Shown: positions 58,442 to 64,000 of the stretch, one piece after another
Numbering within the stretch: the first letter of the stretch is position 1
How the letters are laid out: the number at the start of each line of letters is the position of its first letter
From: Bacillus cereus
Lineage (GTDB): Bacteria; Bacillota; Bacilli; Bacillales; Bacillaceae_G
DNA: 64,000 nucleotides
Reading direction: 5' to 3'
Assembly: GCF_002584535.1 (NCBI RefSeq)
Contig: NZ_NUOT01000061.1
Coordinates: forward strand, 1-64,000
Made by a program: the position numbers and the translations under genes
Notes under the pieces: model-generated
Database searches by the model: none
Seen by the model: only the letters and a program-made list of their open reading frames with translations
What the model was told of the DNA's origin: nothing

Positions 58442-58674
58442 TATAGTCCCTCCTTACTCACTAACTGTAAAAAACTCTTTACAAATTAATAGTATAAAAT
58501 TGGTAGAGGATAATGTCAAATACATTTTACACAAAGATGGAATTTATGGTGATTCTTTATATTATAATTTAGTAATGTATTAGAAGCTAAAAAAAGATTT
58601 CACTCTAATTTGAATGTAAAAGTTAATGTTCGCATATATTTGGAAGGGATGTCAGATAAAATCAGGGGGTATAT

Positions 58675-59844
58675 ATGTCCACACTGTTAAAAGCTGGTGC
58701 AGATGCTGGAAATAACGGATTGAAACTAATGGTGAAAGGGCAACAGCCGATTTATATTCCAAGTATTTATTCACTATATATTGGGGAGCCTACAGGTTTA
58801 TTAGACGAAGAGGATGTACCGATTTCTGAAATTGAAAAACATATTGATGTAACAATTTGTTCCCCATCCCTTATGTTAAACAACGTGCGTTATATTGTGG
58901 GGCAGAAAGTGATTAATGATCAGCTAAAAGGAACAGAGATTGAGAAAAAATCTGATAAATCTACAGATGAATTAATGGTATTAACGATTTTATCAGGTTT
59001 AGCAATTAGTGCTATGCGTCATAGTCCCAAATTGGATCATATTAATATTCGTTACGATTTATCAGTTGCTCTTCCGATGCAAATTATTACACAAGAAATT
59101 GCATCGGAAAACGCTAACCGTTATATGGGAAATCATAAAGTTATTTTTCATTATCCGAACGGAAGAGATGTAACGGTAAATGTCTCCATTGAGTTTTGCA
59201 AATGTTTACCTGAAGGTGCATCTGGTACTTGGGGGATTATATACGATGAAGATGGAAATGTCTTAAAACATAAAGTGGAAGGTGAAAAAAGTTCAACGAC
59301 TGAGATAGATTTCGTTGACAAAACATTATTATCATTTGATATAGGAGCGGGGACAACCGAAGAAGTCGTTTCGTTTGGAGTGAATTTTAGACCGCAATTA
59401 AGTAAAGGGCTGTCATACGGTGTGAAAGAAACCTTATTACAAATAATTACGAGATGGAATCGGAAGTATCCAACAAAAACAATAGATAGTATTACAGAGT
59501 TCAATCAAATTTATTTATATGAGAAACACCCAAGGCATGCACTATTAGTAGCAGAATCCCAACAAGCACTTCTAGGCTTAGCTGCACGGGTTGCGACAGA
59601 TATTATTAATAAAATTGATGATATGAAAGATGATCCATATGTATTTATCTATGGTGGAGGCGCGGTTATCATTAAAAATAGTTTGGAACTTATTTTAAAA
59701 CAAAAAGGCCGTTTAAAAAATGTGATATTTGTAGATAATCCTCTTTTTACAAATGCACGCGGATTACTAGTTTATACATGTTCACCGCGATATAGAGAAC
59801 ATAAACAAAAAGAATTAGGATTTACAAACTTAACAATTAGTTAG
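58675..59844 (+). CDS. ParM/StbA-like actin family protein
   Basis: 389 residues. Actin-fold phosphate loops: G-A-D-A-G-N-N-G-L-K (phosphate 1, residues 7-16) and L-S-F-D-I-G-A-G-T-T-E (phosphate 2, near 222), and the adenosine motif Y-G-G-G-A near 325. Such ATPases form filaments that move plasmids apart; chromosomal copies exist in the B. cereus group. It is followed by a 112-residue gene in the place of a DNA-binding adaptor. A plasmid origin is possible. Confidence 0.85.
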   Translation: MSTLLKAGADAGNNGLKLMVKGQQPIYIPSIYSLYIGEPTGLLDEEDVPISEIEKHIDVTICSPSLMLNNVRYIVGQKVINDQLKGTEIEKKSDKSTDELMVLTILSGLAISAMRHSPKLDHINIRYDLSVALPMQIITQEIASENANRYMGNHKVIFHYPNGRDVTVNVSIEFCKCLPEGASGTWGIIYDEDGNVLKHKVEGEKSSTTEIDFVDKTLLSFDIGAGTTEEVVSFGVNFRPQLSKGLSYGVKETLLQIITRWNRKYPTKTIDSITEFNQIYLYEKHPRHALLVAESQQALLGLAARVATDIINKIDDMKDDPYVFIYGGGAVIIKNSLELILKQKGRLKNVIFVDNPLFTNARGLLVYTCSPRYREHKQKELGFTNLTIS

Positions 59845-59855
59845 CTGGTGTGAGT

Positions 59856-60191
59856 ATGCGGTGTAAGAGGTATAAATGTGGCGATCGGGTAAAAGTATAT
59901 TTAAATAAATCTGTATCTCCTGAGATGCTAGCTTGGATTAATAAGCAATCTGATATAACGAGATTTTTTTTATATGGCGCCGAGCAATTGTTTAAACAAG
60001 TAGGAGATATTGATGTATCTAAAACTTTACCAATTGATCATGTTTTTTTTACGTATGTTGAACCTACTTCTATGTTTAAAATCGAAGTAAATCCTTTAAG
60101 AAACGTAATCAGGAGAAAGAACAAAAATACCGAATGTGTAGAAAATACACCTTGGGAGTCAATTAATGAGTTGGATTGTCCATACTTTTAA
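59856..60191 (+). CDS. Possible adaptor partner of the ParM-like protein
   Basis: 111-113 residues (ATG 59856 or GTG 59850). Basic, Cys-bearing start (M-R-C-K-R-Y-K-C-G-D), then S-P-E-M-L-A-W-I-N-K-Q, a segment typical of the small proteins coded behind StbA/AlfA actins. No clear ribbon-helix-helix. It lies 5-11 nt after the actin gene. Role as DNA adaptor is inference from position and charge. Confidence 0.6.
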   Translation: MRCKRYKCGDRVKVYLNKSVSPEMLAWINKQSDITRFFLYGAEQLFKQVGDIDVSKTLPIDHVFFTYVEPTSMFKIEVNPLRNVIRRKNKNTECVENTPWESINELDCPYF

Positions 60192-60209
60192 AGTAAATCA
60201 AAATAGATT

Positions 60210-60249
60210 GCCCACCACTTTACATATGAAATTAGGGGTGGGCTTTTTT
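60210..60249 (+). terminator. Rho-independent terminator
   Basis: Perfect 7-bp G-C-C-C-A-C-C stem, 20-nt loop, T6. Confidence 0.8.
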
Positions 60250-60309
60250 GTTGATTACAGTTTTGAACAATAAGGGGGTATAGCAACGATCCATTCTTTT
60301 GGGGTCACT

Positions 60310-60353
60310 AAAAATAGCCACAATCTGTTTTAGAAAAGATTGTGGCTATTTTT
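60310..60353. terminator. Orphan hairpin terminator
   Basis: Perfect 17-bp stem (A5 and T5 ends, core T-A-G-C-C-A-C-A-A-T-C-T). Only about 60 bp follow the previous terminator, so a gene in front of it has been lost or it ends a small RNA. Confidence 0.7.
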
Positions 60354-60515
60354 AATCTAATTTGCAACTTTTAATCGCAATAAGGGGTGAAAATTTTTAA
60401 TTTTTTTTACAAATAACTCACAAAAGTAACATATTTTTATCTTACTTTATATATAAGGATTATTTGGTAAGTATTATTACTCAAAATAGTTACTACATAT
60501 AAGGGAGACTACAAA

Positions 60516-61364
60516 ATGGATATGGATTCATATTATTGGGAAATGGTCAAGAAGAATATTGGTGTATATTCTGAACAGGAACAAGAATGTCTTCGAAATA
60601 AGAAGGTCATTATTTTTGGATTAGGTGGGGTAGGAGGATATGAAGCAATTCTCTTCTCTCGGATGGGGGTTGGACATATTACTGGTGTTGATCCAGATGA
60701 ATTTGAAGTCTCTAATATTAACAGACAAATGTTAGCGCTTTCTAGTGTTGTAGGTGAACCAAAAGCAAAAGTTGCAGAACAGGTAGTGAAAGATATACAT
60801 CCCTATATATCAACAAACTTCTTACAAACAAAAGTAGATGAAGATAATGTAACCGAACTTATAAAAGGGCACGATATTGTAGTAGAAGCTGTTGATGATA
60901 TGCCTTCAAGAGTTATTATTCATAGAACTGCTAGAGAATTAGGTATACCAAGTGTAGGGATGTCAGGTAGTCCTCCTACAAGAGGGTTTGTTTCTACATT
61001 CTTCCCAACAGGAGTTCCTTATGAAGAAGCATTGAATGTATCAATTGTAGGACATAAATTAACAAATCCAGAATTAAGACAACAAGTTGCGGATATAAAG
61101 AAAAGTCGTGCTTGGTATTCTGTAGAAAAAGGGGCACCAAAAAAGTGGGCACAAGATTTTTGTGATGGAAAAGTGGGATGGATCATTACACCAATGCGTG
61201 CTCATCTATTATCCCTATTTAGTTTTCATGAAGCAATACAAGTATTAACTGGTCGTGAACCTCTAGCTAGAGCCCCTAAAGGAATTGTTATTGATATGGA
61301 TAGTCATATCCCTGTTCAAGTAAAAGAAGCCCCAAAGGATGGTTGGGATTATAAAACGCTGTAG
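60516..61364 (+). CDS. E1/ThiF-like adenylating enzyme, paralog 1
   Basis: 282 residues. Nucleotide loop G35-L-G-G-V-G-G, V-D-P-D near 58-61, arginine finger N-I-N-R-Q (68-71) and a V-D-D motif near 127 show a ThiF/MoeB/E1-type adenylation domain. Only two Cys (25 and 216), so the C-x-x-C zinc pairs and the usual catalytic thiol are missing. It should activate a carboxylate with ATP without zinc. Ends in W-D-Y-K-T-L, a tail shared with paralog 2. AAGGGAGA site; first gene of the operon. Confidence 0.88.
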   Translation: MDMDSYYWEMVKKNIGVYSEQEQECLRNKKVIIFGLGGVGGYEAILFSRMGVGHITGVDPDEFEVSNINRQMLALSSVVGEPKAKVAEQVVKDIHPYISTNFLQTKVDEDNVTELIKGHDIVVEAVDDMPSRVIIHRTARELGIPSVGMSGSPPTRGFVSTFFPTGVPYEEALNVSIVGHKLTNPELRQQVADIKKSRAWYSVEKGAPKKWAQDFCDGKVGWIITPMRAHLLSLFSFHEAIQVLTGREPLARAPKGIVIDMDSHIPVQVKEAPKDGWDYKTL

Positions 61365-61376
61365 GAGGAAAATAAT

Positions 61377-62243
61377 ATGTTAACCAAAAATAAAGATACG
61401 CAAAAGATGTATGAAGAAAGTTTCACGCGAAATATTGGTGTTATTTCTGTAGAAGAGCAAGAAAAATTAAAAAATGCTCGCGTTACTGTAGTTGGAGCAG
61501 GGGGGGTAGGAGGAATTACACTCATCCAACTGGCAAGAATGGGCGTAAGTTCTCTACATGTAATTGACCAAGATGTATTTGAAACAAGCAATATCAATCG
61601 ACAAATGCTAAGTTCTATTAGTAGATTAGGAAAATCTAAAGCAGACGTCGCTTTAGAAGTTTTAAAGGACATTAATCCCTTATTACAAGTAGACGTAACA
61701 AAAGAATTTGTTACCGAAGAGAATGCGTTAGAGCTTCTGAAAAATACAGATCTCATTATAGATGCAACTGATAATTTAGTAGCGAGAGTCATTATCCATC
61801 GTACAGCCAGGATATTAGGGATTCCTTCTATATGGATTGCAGTTACACCTCCTTTTAGAGGTGGCGTGATGTCTTTAGCTCCTGACTCTGTGCCCTATGA
61901 AATTGCATTAGGATATCCATCTTATCAGCAAGAGCTAACACCAGAAATGAAAAATATAATTCATGAATTAAAAGATGGACGTGCTCTTCATTCTGTCAAG
62001 CATGGTGCGGATGAGAAATGGGCAAATAGTTACGTACAAAAAGATCTTCCATGGACTGTACTGTCTCCTGTTGCAAATATTGTAGGTATTCTAGCAAGCT
62101 TTGAAGCATTTAAATTTATAATAAATCGAGAAGATTTAAAACCTGTCATAAGTCCAAATCTAATACAAATTAATCTTTCCAATCAAAATATGGTACATGT
62201 ATCTGCACCTGAAAATGATAGTTGGGATTATACAACATTATAG
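61377..62243 (+). CDS. E1/ThiF-like adenylating enzyme, paralog 2
   Basis: 288 residues. G40-A-G-G-V-G-G loop, I-D-Q-D near 63-66, N-I-N-R-Q at 72-76 and D-A-T-D-N near 131. It contains no cysteine at all, so neither thioester chemistry nor a zinc site is possible; it may adenylate only, or pair with paralog 1 as a heterodimer, as split eukaryotic E1 enzymes do. C terminus W-D-Y-T-T-L echoes paralog 1. Starts 12 nt after it with TAGGAGGAAA. Confidence 0.88.
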   Translation: MLTKNKDTQKMYEESFTRNIGVISVEEQEKLKNARVTVVGAGGVGGITLIQLARMGVSSLHVIDQDVFETSNINRQMLSSISRLGKSKADVALEVLKDINPLLQVDVTKEFVTEENALELLKNTDLIIDATDNLVARVIIHRTARILGIPSIWIAVTPPFRGGVMSLAPDSVPYEIALGYPSYQQELTPEMKNIIHELKDGRALHSVKHGADEKWANSYVQKDLPWTVLSPVANIVGILASFEAFKFIINREDLKPVISPNLIQINLSNQNMVHVSAPENDSWDYTTL

Positions 62244-62258
62244 ATGAGGTAAGAGAAT

Positions 62259-62696
62259 ATGCTTCCTTTTTTGTTACTTGGAATTATTGTTATACTTTCT
62301 CTGCTTGTAAAGGATTATGTGCTAGCTGGTGTAGCTTGTTTATTAGGCGTTTTACTTGCTGTTGGACAAAGAACTTTATTACATCTTATTCAACAATATT
62401 CTTTTCCAATTGGTATTTTCTTTCTCATGCTCTTCCTTTTAGTGCCAATTACATCTGGAAAGATTACAAGTGAAAGCGTAATAAAATTAATTACTTCTCC
62501 TATCGGCTTAGGTTCCATTCTAGCAGGTTTTACTGTGTCATACATAGGAGGAAAAGGAGTAGGAGTTTTAACTATGAACCCTACGATTTTGTTAGGTGTC
62601 TTAGTAGGGACTCTTGTTGCCGTATTATTTACAAAAGGGTTACCGGCAGGATTAATTATTGCTGCTGGAATAATAGCTATCGTTTCTATGAAATGA
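62259..62696 (+). CDS. DUF441 family membrane protein
   Basis: 145 residues, about four membrane segments. G-K-I-T after the second helix, G-K-G-V-G-V-L-T-M-N-P and P-A-G-L-I-I-A-A-G mark DUF441 (YtwI-like). A possible transporter or exporter; function unproven. Fifteen nt after the second ThiF-like gene, so it may export or import the pathway product. Confidence 0.87.
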   Translation: MLPFLLLGIIVILSLLVKDYVLAGVACLLGVLLAVGQRTLLHLIQQYSFPIGIFFLMLFLLVPITSGKITSESVIKLITSPIGLGSILAGFTVSYIGGKGVGVLTMNPTILLGVLVGTLVAVLFTKGLPAGLIIAAGIIAIVSMK

Positions 62697-62710
62697 AAGG
62701 AACATTCTAA

Positions 62711-63775
62711 ATGAAGATAAAATGGACACATATTAGTTTAGTAGGTTTATTTTTGATAATTCTTATGTCGGGTTGCTCTAATAGTACAGAAACTTCTCAA
62801 AACGCTCAAACTTCTAAAGTGGTAAAAGAAAAATTAGAAATTCAGCAAGGAGAAGAAAAATTACATTTACTTCATAAAAACTTAAATAATAAAAAACAGT
62901 ATACATCCGATGAAGTAATCTTATTTTTAGAACCATTTAGTGTACCGACTGCTCAAGCATTTGATGTACCAAAATATTCGTGGATGGATGAGTATGCTAG
63001 AAAAGGGTATGATACTTGGGCTATGGATTTCAGAGGGTTTGGTCATTCTTCTCACCCTCAAGAAATGTCAGAACCTCCTTCCAAAAATCGCCCGGTTATT
63101 CATTTGAATGATGCGACAAAGGATCTAGAAACAATCGTAACTTGGATCAAAAAGAAGAGAAATGTGAAAAAAATTCATATCGTTGGATGGTCATATGGAG
63201 GCGTTGTTGCTGGTAATTATGCGATAACCCATCCTCAAGACATTAATAAAATCATTCTATACGGATATATGCATGGATTCGAGCTACCTATGATGACAAA
63301 ACCTCTTGAAAATCCATTACAACCTAATCAATTTAATCCTGAGGCATCAGCCTATCAAATGGTGGACTTTGATAAAGGAATGCATCATTGGCATATGATG
63401 ATGGGAAATAAAAAAATCGTTACAAATGAAGCGATGGATGCCGTAAAACAAGTATTTATCAATTCGGATCCTATGAGTGAGAAAAACAATCAAATGATCC
63501 GTCGACCAGTTGGTCCACTAGAAGATTTATATTCTATTTGGAATAATCGTCCTTTATATGATGTATCTAAGATTACTGCTCCAGTACTTGTCATTTATGG
63601 AGAAGATGATCTATTTGCAGATCGAAATATGATGTCAAAATTAACAGGCGCAAAACAAAAAAAAGAAGTTGTCATCCCTGATGCAACACACTGGGCTGTT
63701 TATGAAAAAAATCATTCCATCCTATTTGAACAAGTATTAAACTTTATAGAAATGAAAGAAGGAAAAAAGAAATGA
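62711..63775 (+). CDS. Alpha/beta-hydrolase lipoprotein
   Basis: 354 residues. Signal peptide with lipobox M-S-G-C22, then an alpha/beta-hydrolase domain: nucleophile S161 in G-W-S-Y-G-G, acid in Y-G-E-D-D, His in A-T-H-W. It acts outside the membrane, which is odd in an operon of cytoplasmic biosynthetic enzymes; it may unmask or degrade the product or its exogenous form. Stop overlaps the next start (ATGA). Confidence 0.88.
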   Translation: MKIKWTHISLVGLFLIILMSGCSNSTETSQNAQTSKVVKEKLEIQQGEEKLHLLHKNLNNKKQYTSDEVILFLEPFSVPTAQAFDVPKYSWMDEYARKGYDTWAMDFRGFGHSSHPQEMSEPPSKNRPVIHLNDATKDLETIVTWIKKKRNVKKIHIVGWSYGGVVAGNYAITHPQDINKIILYGYMHGFELPMMTKPLENPLQPNQFNPEASAYQMVDFDKGMHHWHMMMGNKKIVTNEAMDAVKQVFINSDPMSEKNNQMIRRPVGPLEDLYSIWNNRPLYDVSKITAPVLVIYGEDDLFADRNMMSKLTGAKQKKEVVIPDATHWAVYEKNHSILFEQVLNFIEMKEGKKK

Positions 63776-64000
63776 ACAAGCACATAACAATATTAGATGC
63801 AACTTTACGTGAAGGGGAACAACAATGTGGTGTTCGTTTTTCTAAGGAAGACAAAATTACACTACTTCATATGTTGGAAAATTTCGGAGTACCCCTTATT
63901 GAGGTTGGACATCCAGGCATTTCTAAAGAAGAAGAAGAAATTTGCAGAGAAGTTGCCGCCTCTGCAAAGCAAGCTGACATATTGATGCATGCTCGTGCGA
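63772..64000 (+). CDS. Homocitrate/isopropylmalate/citramalate synthase-like enzyme (partial)
   Basis: Only the first 76 codons lie in the window. I-L-D-A-T-L-R-E-G-E-Q-Q-C-G (residues 7-20) is the metal and substrate signature of the HMGL/DRE-TIM family, with V-G-H-P-G following at about 48. It condenses acetyl-CoA (or a homologue) with an oxoacid. Overlaps the lipoprotein gene by 4 nt (ATGA). The exact oxoacid cannot be told, and the gene runs off the window. Confidence 0.88.
   Translation, partial: MNKHITILDATLREGEQQCGVRFSKEDKITLLHMLENFGVPLIEVGHPGISKEEEEICREVAASAKQADILMHARA

Follow-up and report, generated by a model that had tools for sequence, protein, structure and literature searches.

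Five genes at the end of a 64,000-nucleotide stretch of Bacillus cereus DNA (contig NZ_NUOT01000061.1, positions 1 to 64,000, hereafter the window) form a block that recurs in the same order in distant bacteria and is undescribed in the literature we searched. We read this block, tentatively and with somewhat less than even confidence, as a self-contained and apparently mobile cassette for a small acid-derived metabolite that is secreted or handled at the cell surface, built by way of an HMGL-type synthase fused to a cupin domain, a pair of ThiF-like enzymes, a DUF441 membrane protein and a hydrolase. The five open reading frames (ORFs) occupy positions 60516-64000 on the + strand and encode, in order, ThiFa, ThiFb, DUF441, the hydrolase and the start of the HMGL enzyme, with intergenic gaps of 12, 15, 14 and −4 nt. 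An earlier reading of the DNA letters (here the sequence-only reading) had proposed an operon-like block at this place, and the ORFs, their strand and their gaps were all found as claimed. Its statement that this mix fits no familiar Bacillus pathway also stood, in that searches of open-access papers gave neither a described pathway with this gene set nor any account of the five-gene block; the unusual amino acid or modified peptide that it named would be a candidate product.

Conservation of the neighborhood in other genomes had been set beforehand as a refutation test, which the reading passed: the order ThiFa-ThiFb-DUF441-hydrolase-HMGL is present in 12 loci besides the window (a duplicate left out), drawn from Oscillatoria (Cyanobacteria) and from Bacilli including Thermoactinomycetaceae. 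An alignment scan of genome contigs with the two ThiFs returned 13 loci, six of which (L002-L007) match ThiFa at 66-71% identity; the remaining seven are distant ThiFs of 28-37% identity. The window order is found in L002-L006, which come from two Oscillatoria, Baia soyae, Croceifilum oryzae and a Thermoactinomyces (Baia and Croceifilum being Thermoactinomycetaceae, class Bacilli), and the complete ordered block is present in eight of the nine wider loci L038-L046, of which L046 seems to duplicate L006 (their HMGLs are identical) and was counted once. The sixth close match, L007, comes from a metagenome-assembled actinomycete genome; there the gene families of the block stand in a different order, the HMGL and the cupin are encoded separately, and the hydrolase gene is truncated where the contig begins. 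In the ninth of the wider loci, from genome G084, ThiFa-ThiFb-DUF441 lies on a 6 kb contig and the HMGL-cupin gene on another contig, where the other block genes are not present in the surrounding 11.7 kb.

When whole genomes of the class to which Baia belongs were searched, 10 of 398 (centre included) had a ThiFa match with an E value no higher than 1e-60, and in each of those ten a second match adjoins the first. Matches occurred in five of 23 genomes of the G002 family and five of 26 of the G217 genus (centres included); phylum-level searches around the Oscillatoria and actinomycete genomes recovered the centre genome alone (1/292 and 1/296, respectively). The block is patchy: most copies found here come from Bacilli, and a few occur in distant groups. 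Its flanks vary between groups while being common within the G217 genus. Changing flanks and patchiness fit an apparently mobile cassette; no transfer machinery for it was identified. The five genes are inherited together: their identities correlate at 0.92-0.99 (66 pairs, 12 loci), a value that partly follows host relatedness, and they are under purifying selection, with ratios of nonsynonymous to synonymous substitution rates of 0.03-0.32 in all 30 values from six close pairs.

ThiFa (60516-61364, +, 282 aa; Pfam ThiF, 2.9e-37) and ThiFb (61377-62243, +, 288 aa; Pfam ThiF, 1e-45) are E1/ThiF-like paralogues with 41% identity and a WDYxTL tail at both C-termini, as the description of a tandem ThiF-like pair with a common tail had it, and CxxC zinc pairs are indeed missing in both window proteins. 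ThiFa is 65-71% and ThiFb 51-71% identical to six relatives each. The closest solved structures, over the core only, are MoeB (1jw9) for ThiFa and ThiF (1zfn) for ThiFb, and the best NCBIfam model for both is NF006077 (PRK08223, 'hypothetical protein'); all of the 25 models listed, of 26 per ThiF protein, missed their cut-off. In an alignment with E. coli MoeB the positions of R73, K86 and D130, which we take to be catalytic or adenylation residues, are kept in both proteins, in support of the adenylation that the sequence-only reading proposed.

The label 'Cys-poor' is right by count, with two Cys in ThiFa and none in ThiFb, but it hides an invariant residue: Cys216 of ThiFa (codon 61161-61163, +) is kept in all nine aligned ThiFa sequences and, in a second alignment, in eight of eight (window included), and it is the only Cys common to those eight. 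It precedes a conserved IITP stretch by a short distance and sits in a loop that also holds a Cys in MoeB and ThiF, there too ahead of the matching stretch. None of eight ThiFb sequences has a Cys at this column; the complete absence of Cys noted earlier is true of the window copy, but five of the eight aligned ThiFb have Cys in varying places. ThiFa and ThiFb may divide their labor. In their Pfam family and adenylation positions the cassette proteins resemble MoeB and ThiF, and Cys216 of ThiFa occupies the same loop, though not the same alignment column, as the Cys of those enzymes; they differ from MoeB and ThiF in lacking the zinc Cys pairs, in occurring as paired paralogues and in carrying the WDYxTL tail; a PPxRG motif in the cassette ThiFs is also not found in MoeB.

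The fifth gene (63772-64000, +) is open at the window end and encodes the N-terminal 76 aa of an HMGL enzyme (Pfam HMGL-like, 2.4e-17), 62-64% identical to those of L002-L006 over 72-76 aa. Full-length relatives have 456-475 aa and consist of a barrel followed by a portion of the second homocitrate-synthase domain and then approximately 140 aa with HxH and PAGxxH motifs. The motifs DxTLREGEQ and HxHND are invariant in 10 relatives, and the window fragment shows the first only. Placement in the DRE-TIM condensing-enzyme group agrees with the chain-extending synthase of the sequence-only reading; its narrower assignment to a 2-alkylmalate-type synthase is corrected by the relatives, which have a homocitrate-type Arg and a fused cupin. 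Specifically, the best Protein Data Bank (PDB) matches of the barrel are homocitrate synthases (6ktq, 1e-63), and all ten aligned HMGL-cupins have Arg at position 134, as LysS does, where a LeuA and an archaeal CimA have Glu. This position is presumably the one that binds the distal carboxylate of 2-oxoglutarate, and Arg134 thus gives a hint, from sequence comparison, of a homocitrate-type substrate. Two features of 2-isopropylmalate synthase are absent: Pfam detects no LeuA-type C-terminal domain in the HMGLs of L002, L004 and L006, and Arg replaces Glu at position 134.

The seven cassette HMGL-cupins group together as a single clade when 14 barrels are placed in a tree. Their cupin part matches the PDB cupins 6j4b (2.3e-6), which we take to be the maremycin epimerase MarH, and 7eqk (1.5e-4), and Pfam Cupin_2 gives a weak match in six of eight HMGL-cupins (best E 0.02). 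Those small proteins stand as cupins, whereas the cassette's cupin part is fused to a synthase. The cassette enzyme is like homocitrate synthases of the LysS type (TIGR02146) in its DRE-TIM barrel, its best PDB matches and Arg134, and unlike them in having the C-terminal part replaced by a cupin. In phage records HMGL gave eight matches, none of which covers 80% of the query.

The third gene encodes a DUF441 membrane protein of 145 aa (62259-62696, +; Pfam PF04284, 1.4e-26) that is hydrophobic along much of its length and 38-52% identical to 11 relatives. The fourth encodes a surface lipoprotein alpha/beta-hydrolase of 354 aa (62711-63775, +; Pfam Abhydrolase_1, 1.9e-24) with a lipobox-type signal, MSGC, at Cys22. 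Ser161, Asp300 and His327 (the triad) and Cys22 are invariant in all ten aligned sequences, window included; the strict lipobox pattern is present in eight of 13 copies, and the other five, from the G217 genus, read LVQGC.

The HMGL-cupin architecture has a counterpart elsewhere. Among 72,556 plasmid records a single one matches the cupin part, and the same record alone matches at least 80% of the full HMGL-cupin (42% identity over 99% of its length). It is a Pseudomonas aeruginosa plasmid carrying a cluster of the nonribosomal peptide synthetase (NRPS) type (L059, 10439-17926) that encodes an AMP-binding and carrier protein, a 420 aa protein without a Pfam match, a hydrolase and a phytanoyl-CoA dioxygenase; next come the synthase, a methyltransferase and a short AMP-binding piece. 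At this last piece the cluster ends, and phage-type genes (Mor, GemA, Gam) follow. From gene order and products we infer that it corresponds to PA1221-PA1215 of the cluster PA1211-PA1221; the order and products of PA1221-PA1215 listed in PMC3325935 and PMC9866376 fit, and PMC3510237 calls the PA1211-PA1221 locus one of unknown functions. The PA1217 cluster resembles the cassette in having an HMGL-cupin, a hydrolase and carboxylate-activating enzymes, and differs in its AMP-binding (NRPS-type) activation, its methyltransferase and its dioxygenase, with no ThiF or DUF441 annotated. Homology between the two hydrolases was considered and rejected, the evidence being one weak 45-residue match. These contexts were sought in plasmid records and, among whole genomes, in G084 only, so others may exist. 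In the barrel tree the P. aeruginosa enzyme pairs, with weak support (61), with one from a Cereibacter sphaeroides plasmid. The latter lies in what looks like a metabolite cluster (L060, 9775-17332) with radical S-adenosylmethionine (SAM) and methyltransferase genes, an HMGL without cupin, a pyridoxal phosphate enzyme and an asparagine-synthase-like protein.

From these genes, their co-inheritance and selection, the domains of the relatives and the conserved active-site residues, we infer the following chemistry. The HMGL-cupin would condense acetyl-CoA with a 2-oxo acid bearing a distal acidic group (2-oxoglutarate-like) to give a homocitrate-type hydroxy acid, and the fused cupin would condition substrate or product, perhaps by epimerizing a center beside the keto group. 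ThiFa and ThiFb, probably as a heterodimer, would then adenylate a carboxylate of this acid, and Cys216 of ThiFa may accept the acyl group as a thioester. The activated acid would then close or be coupled, yielding an amide, a lactone or a thioacid, DUF441 may help the product across the membrane, and the anchored lipoprotein hydrolase would open it outside, for release or self-protection.

A number of observations weigh against this pathway. The block lacks a gene for any evident partner that would supply an amine or sulfur, and the transport role of DUF441 is a guess. Neither ThiF has an Arg aligned to Arg14 of MoeB, which we take to be a functional residue, and Cys216 and the MoeB Cys were never placed in one column, whichever of three alignment modes was used. 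A Nostoc NifV, annotated as a homocitrate synthase, has Ser at the Arg134 position, and Arg134 therefore does not settle the substrate. The window HMGL ends before both Arg134 and the cupin, and these features are accordingly taken from the relatives. In a second difference from the LysS type, the HMGLs of L002, L006, L038 and L044 score 277-296 against the NCBIfam homocitrate-synthase model TIGR02146, whose cut-off is 413.55; the separate HMGL of L007 scores 417.7, and in the barrel tree it lies outside the cassette clade, grouped with lysS/nifV/leuA/cimA (99). Finally, in G084 no such hydrolase adjoins either piece of the block, the remainder of that genome not having been searched.

A more far-reaching form of the proposed pathway, which we regard as possible but somewhat less likely still, is that the cassette is a minimal small-molecule assembly line without NRPS or precursor peptide, in which a heterodimeric E1 made of a Cys-bearing and a Cys-free subunit passes a homocitrate-type acid along as acyl-adenylate or thioester to a new class of secreted metabolite, with the PA1217 cluster using a related building block with NRPS-type activation. 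E1-like enzymes activate ubiquitin-like proteins, sulfur carriers, a tRNA base and peptides, and eukaryotic E1 pairs consist of one Cys-bearing and one Cys-free subunit. If the proposal is true, an E1 pair that serves a small homocitrate-type acid would extend the range of E1 substrates and would offer a prokaryotic model for the origin of Cys-bearing and Cys-free E1 partners by duplication. The common HMGL-cupin ties the cassette to the P. aeruginosa cluster, such that solving one product would help with the other, and the cassette product is directly testable because the block is short and complete.

The alternative that survives best, although we consider it unlikely, is a sulfur or thioacid pathway in which Cys216 would bear a thioester or persulfide and the two ThiFs, together with a ThiS/MoaD-type carrier of the host, would form a thiocarboxylate. 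The invariance of Cys216 in the MoeB/ThiF Cys loop speaks for it, as does the F-C-E-G motif, which ThiFa has in common with all three ThiFs of Chloroflexi loci (L010, 9962-10897; L011, 5661-6596; L012, 9986-10921). Against this, the cassette ThiFs lack MoeB's zinc Cys pairs and the block has no carrier-protein, rhodanese or cysteine-desulfurase gene; a ThiS/MoaD-like carrier gene was likewise not noticed by eye among the flanking ORFs listed (at least 90 aa in L038-L046). The three Chloroflexi ThiFs adjoin a 677 aa protein that by eye is aldehyde ferredoxin oxidoreductase-like.

We give still less weight to the idea that homocitrate-type acids are amidated to a metallophore from which the surface hydrolase frees the metal. 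Homocitrate is a metal ligand in the iron-molybdenum cofactor, and a homocitrate-type synthase stands in the cassette together with carboxylate-activating enzymes, both of which would suit such a product, but the block contains no metal-uptake gene or regulator. Moreover, four proteins of the P. aeruginosa cluster, PA1214, PA1216, PA1217 and PA1218, are down rather than up under metal-withholding calprotectin (PMC8557868), and this decrease speaks against a metallophore role there.

A ribosomal peptide pathway, in which the ThiFs would modify a short peptide encoded elsewhere (as for microcin C and pantocin) and the HMGL would supply an unusual acyl part, is doubtful to a somewhat greater degree. 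ThiF-like enzymes do serve several peptide pathways, according to PMC12250964, and the cassette ThiFs share the E1-like core of PaaA (5ff5; 2.3e-18 and 1.4e-17) and MccB (3h5n; 1.1e-13 and 1.8e-14). They lack, however, the N-terminal peptide-recognition domain of those enzymes, for which a ThiF match starting at residue 14-17 of 282-288 aa proteins leaves little space, and their operon includes a condensing synthase. ORFs 15-90 codons long, listed for the approximately 800 nt preceding ThiFa in the window and in 12 relatives, were compared visually. No short ORF is common between groups among these 13 loci, a result that covers this upstream interval only, the downstream and further antisense sequence not having been searched; it agrees with the earlier remark that no precursor peptide precedes the first gene and marks a further difference from MccB and PaaA. 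A 16-codon ORF with a ribosome-site-like stretch does recur upstream of ThiFa in all five loci of the G217 genus (L039-L042, L045), which favors a peptide, but this recurrence may reflect close kinship only; neither it nor a 45-codon minus-strand ORF upstream in L004 and L005 was seen in other groups.

Modification of the cell envelope, with the product attached to a wall or surface polymer instead of being released and the anchored hydrolase editing it, appears improbable. A lipoprotein hydrolase and a membrane protein are present in all 12 complete same-order loci, and the L005 block adjoins, by eye, sugar-nucleotide-type genes; such genes are not common to the varying flanks of the other groups, however, and the block contains neither a glycosyltransferase nor an acyltransferase. 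That the genes form no functional unit is hardly credible even with the HMGL gene of G084 lying apart from its ThiF genes, since the recurrence of all five genes in one order at 12 other loci of Cyanobacteria and Bacilli rules out chance adjacency, to which correlated divergence and purifying selection are added.

Around the block, the GC content of the window (33.8%) compares with 34-40% for the five genes. Nine promoter-like sites were found against 18.0 in shuffled sequence, one of them, scoring 9/12, at 60406-60435 before ThiFa, and five terminator-like sites against 2.1. Two hairpins, each followed by a T run, were seen by eye at 60200-60365; they are absent from the terminator-scan list, perhaps owing to longer loops. 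RNA family searches of 59800-64000 gave five weak matches, none at gathering score, and among nine relatives' loci L039 has a cobalamin riboswitch and L038 a SAM riboswitch, each past the end of HMGL and external to the block. The hairpins separate the cassette from a ParM/ALP-like actin gene and a small partner gene (58675-60191), which directly precede it in chromosome-looking sequence. A similar ParM gene is present on a Bacillus arachidis plasmid, and the ParM-like gene was the sole match of 58600-64000 in the plasmid collection. A plasmid origin, hinted at by this gene, seems unlikely: ten larger window proteins were scanned, and those identified as a cell-wall hydrolase, YpeB, RecQ, kynureninase and an M29 peptidase suggest a Bacillus-type chromosome. 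Searches with YpeB reached identities of no more than 63%, 65% and 69%, and none of 299 genomes gave a match at 1e-215, an empty result that carries no weight in the absence of a known match. Exact-peptide scans with ThiFb in genome contigs and viral contigs gave no match. In the Thermoactinomyces locus (L006, 1-2803), phage genes of tail-like and amidase-like kinds were recognized by eye upstream of the cassette.

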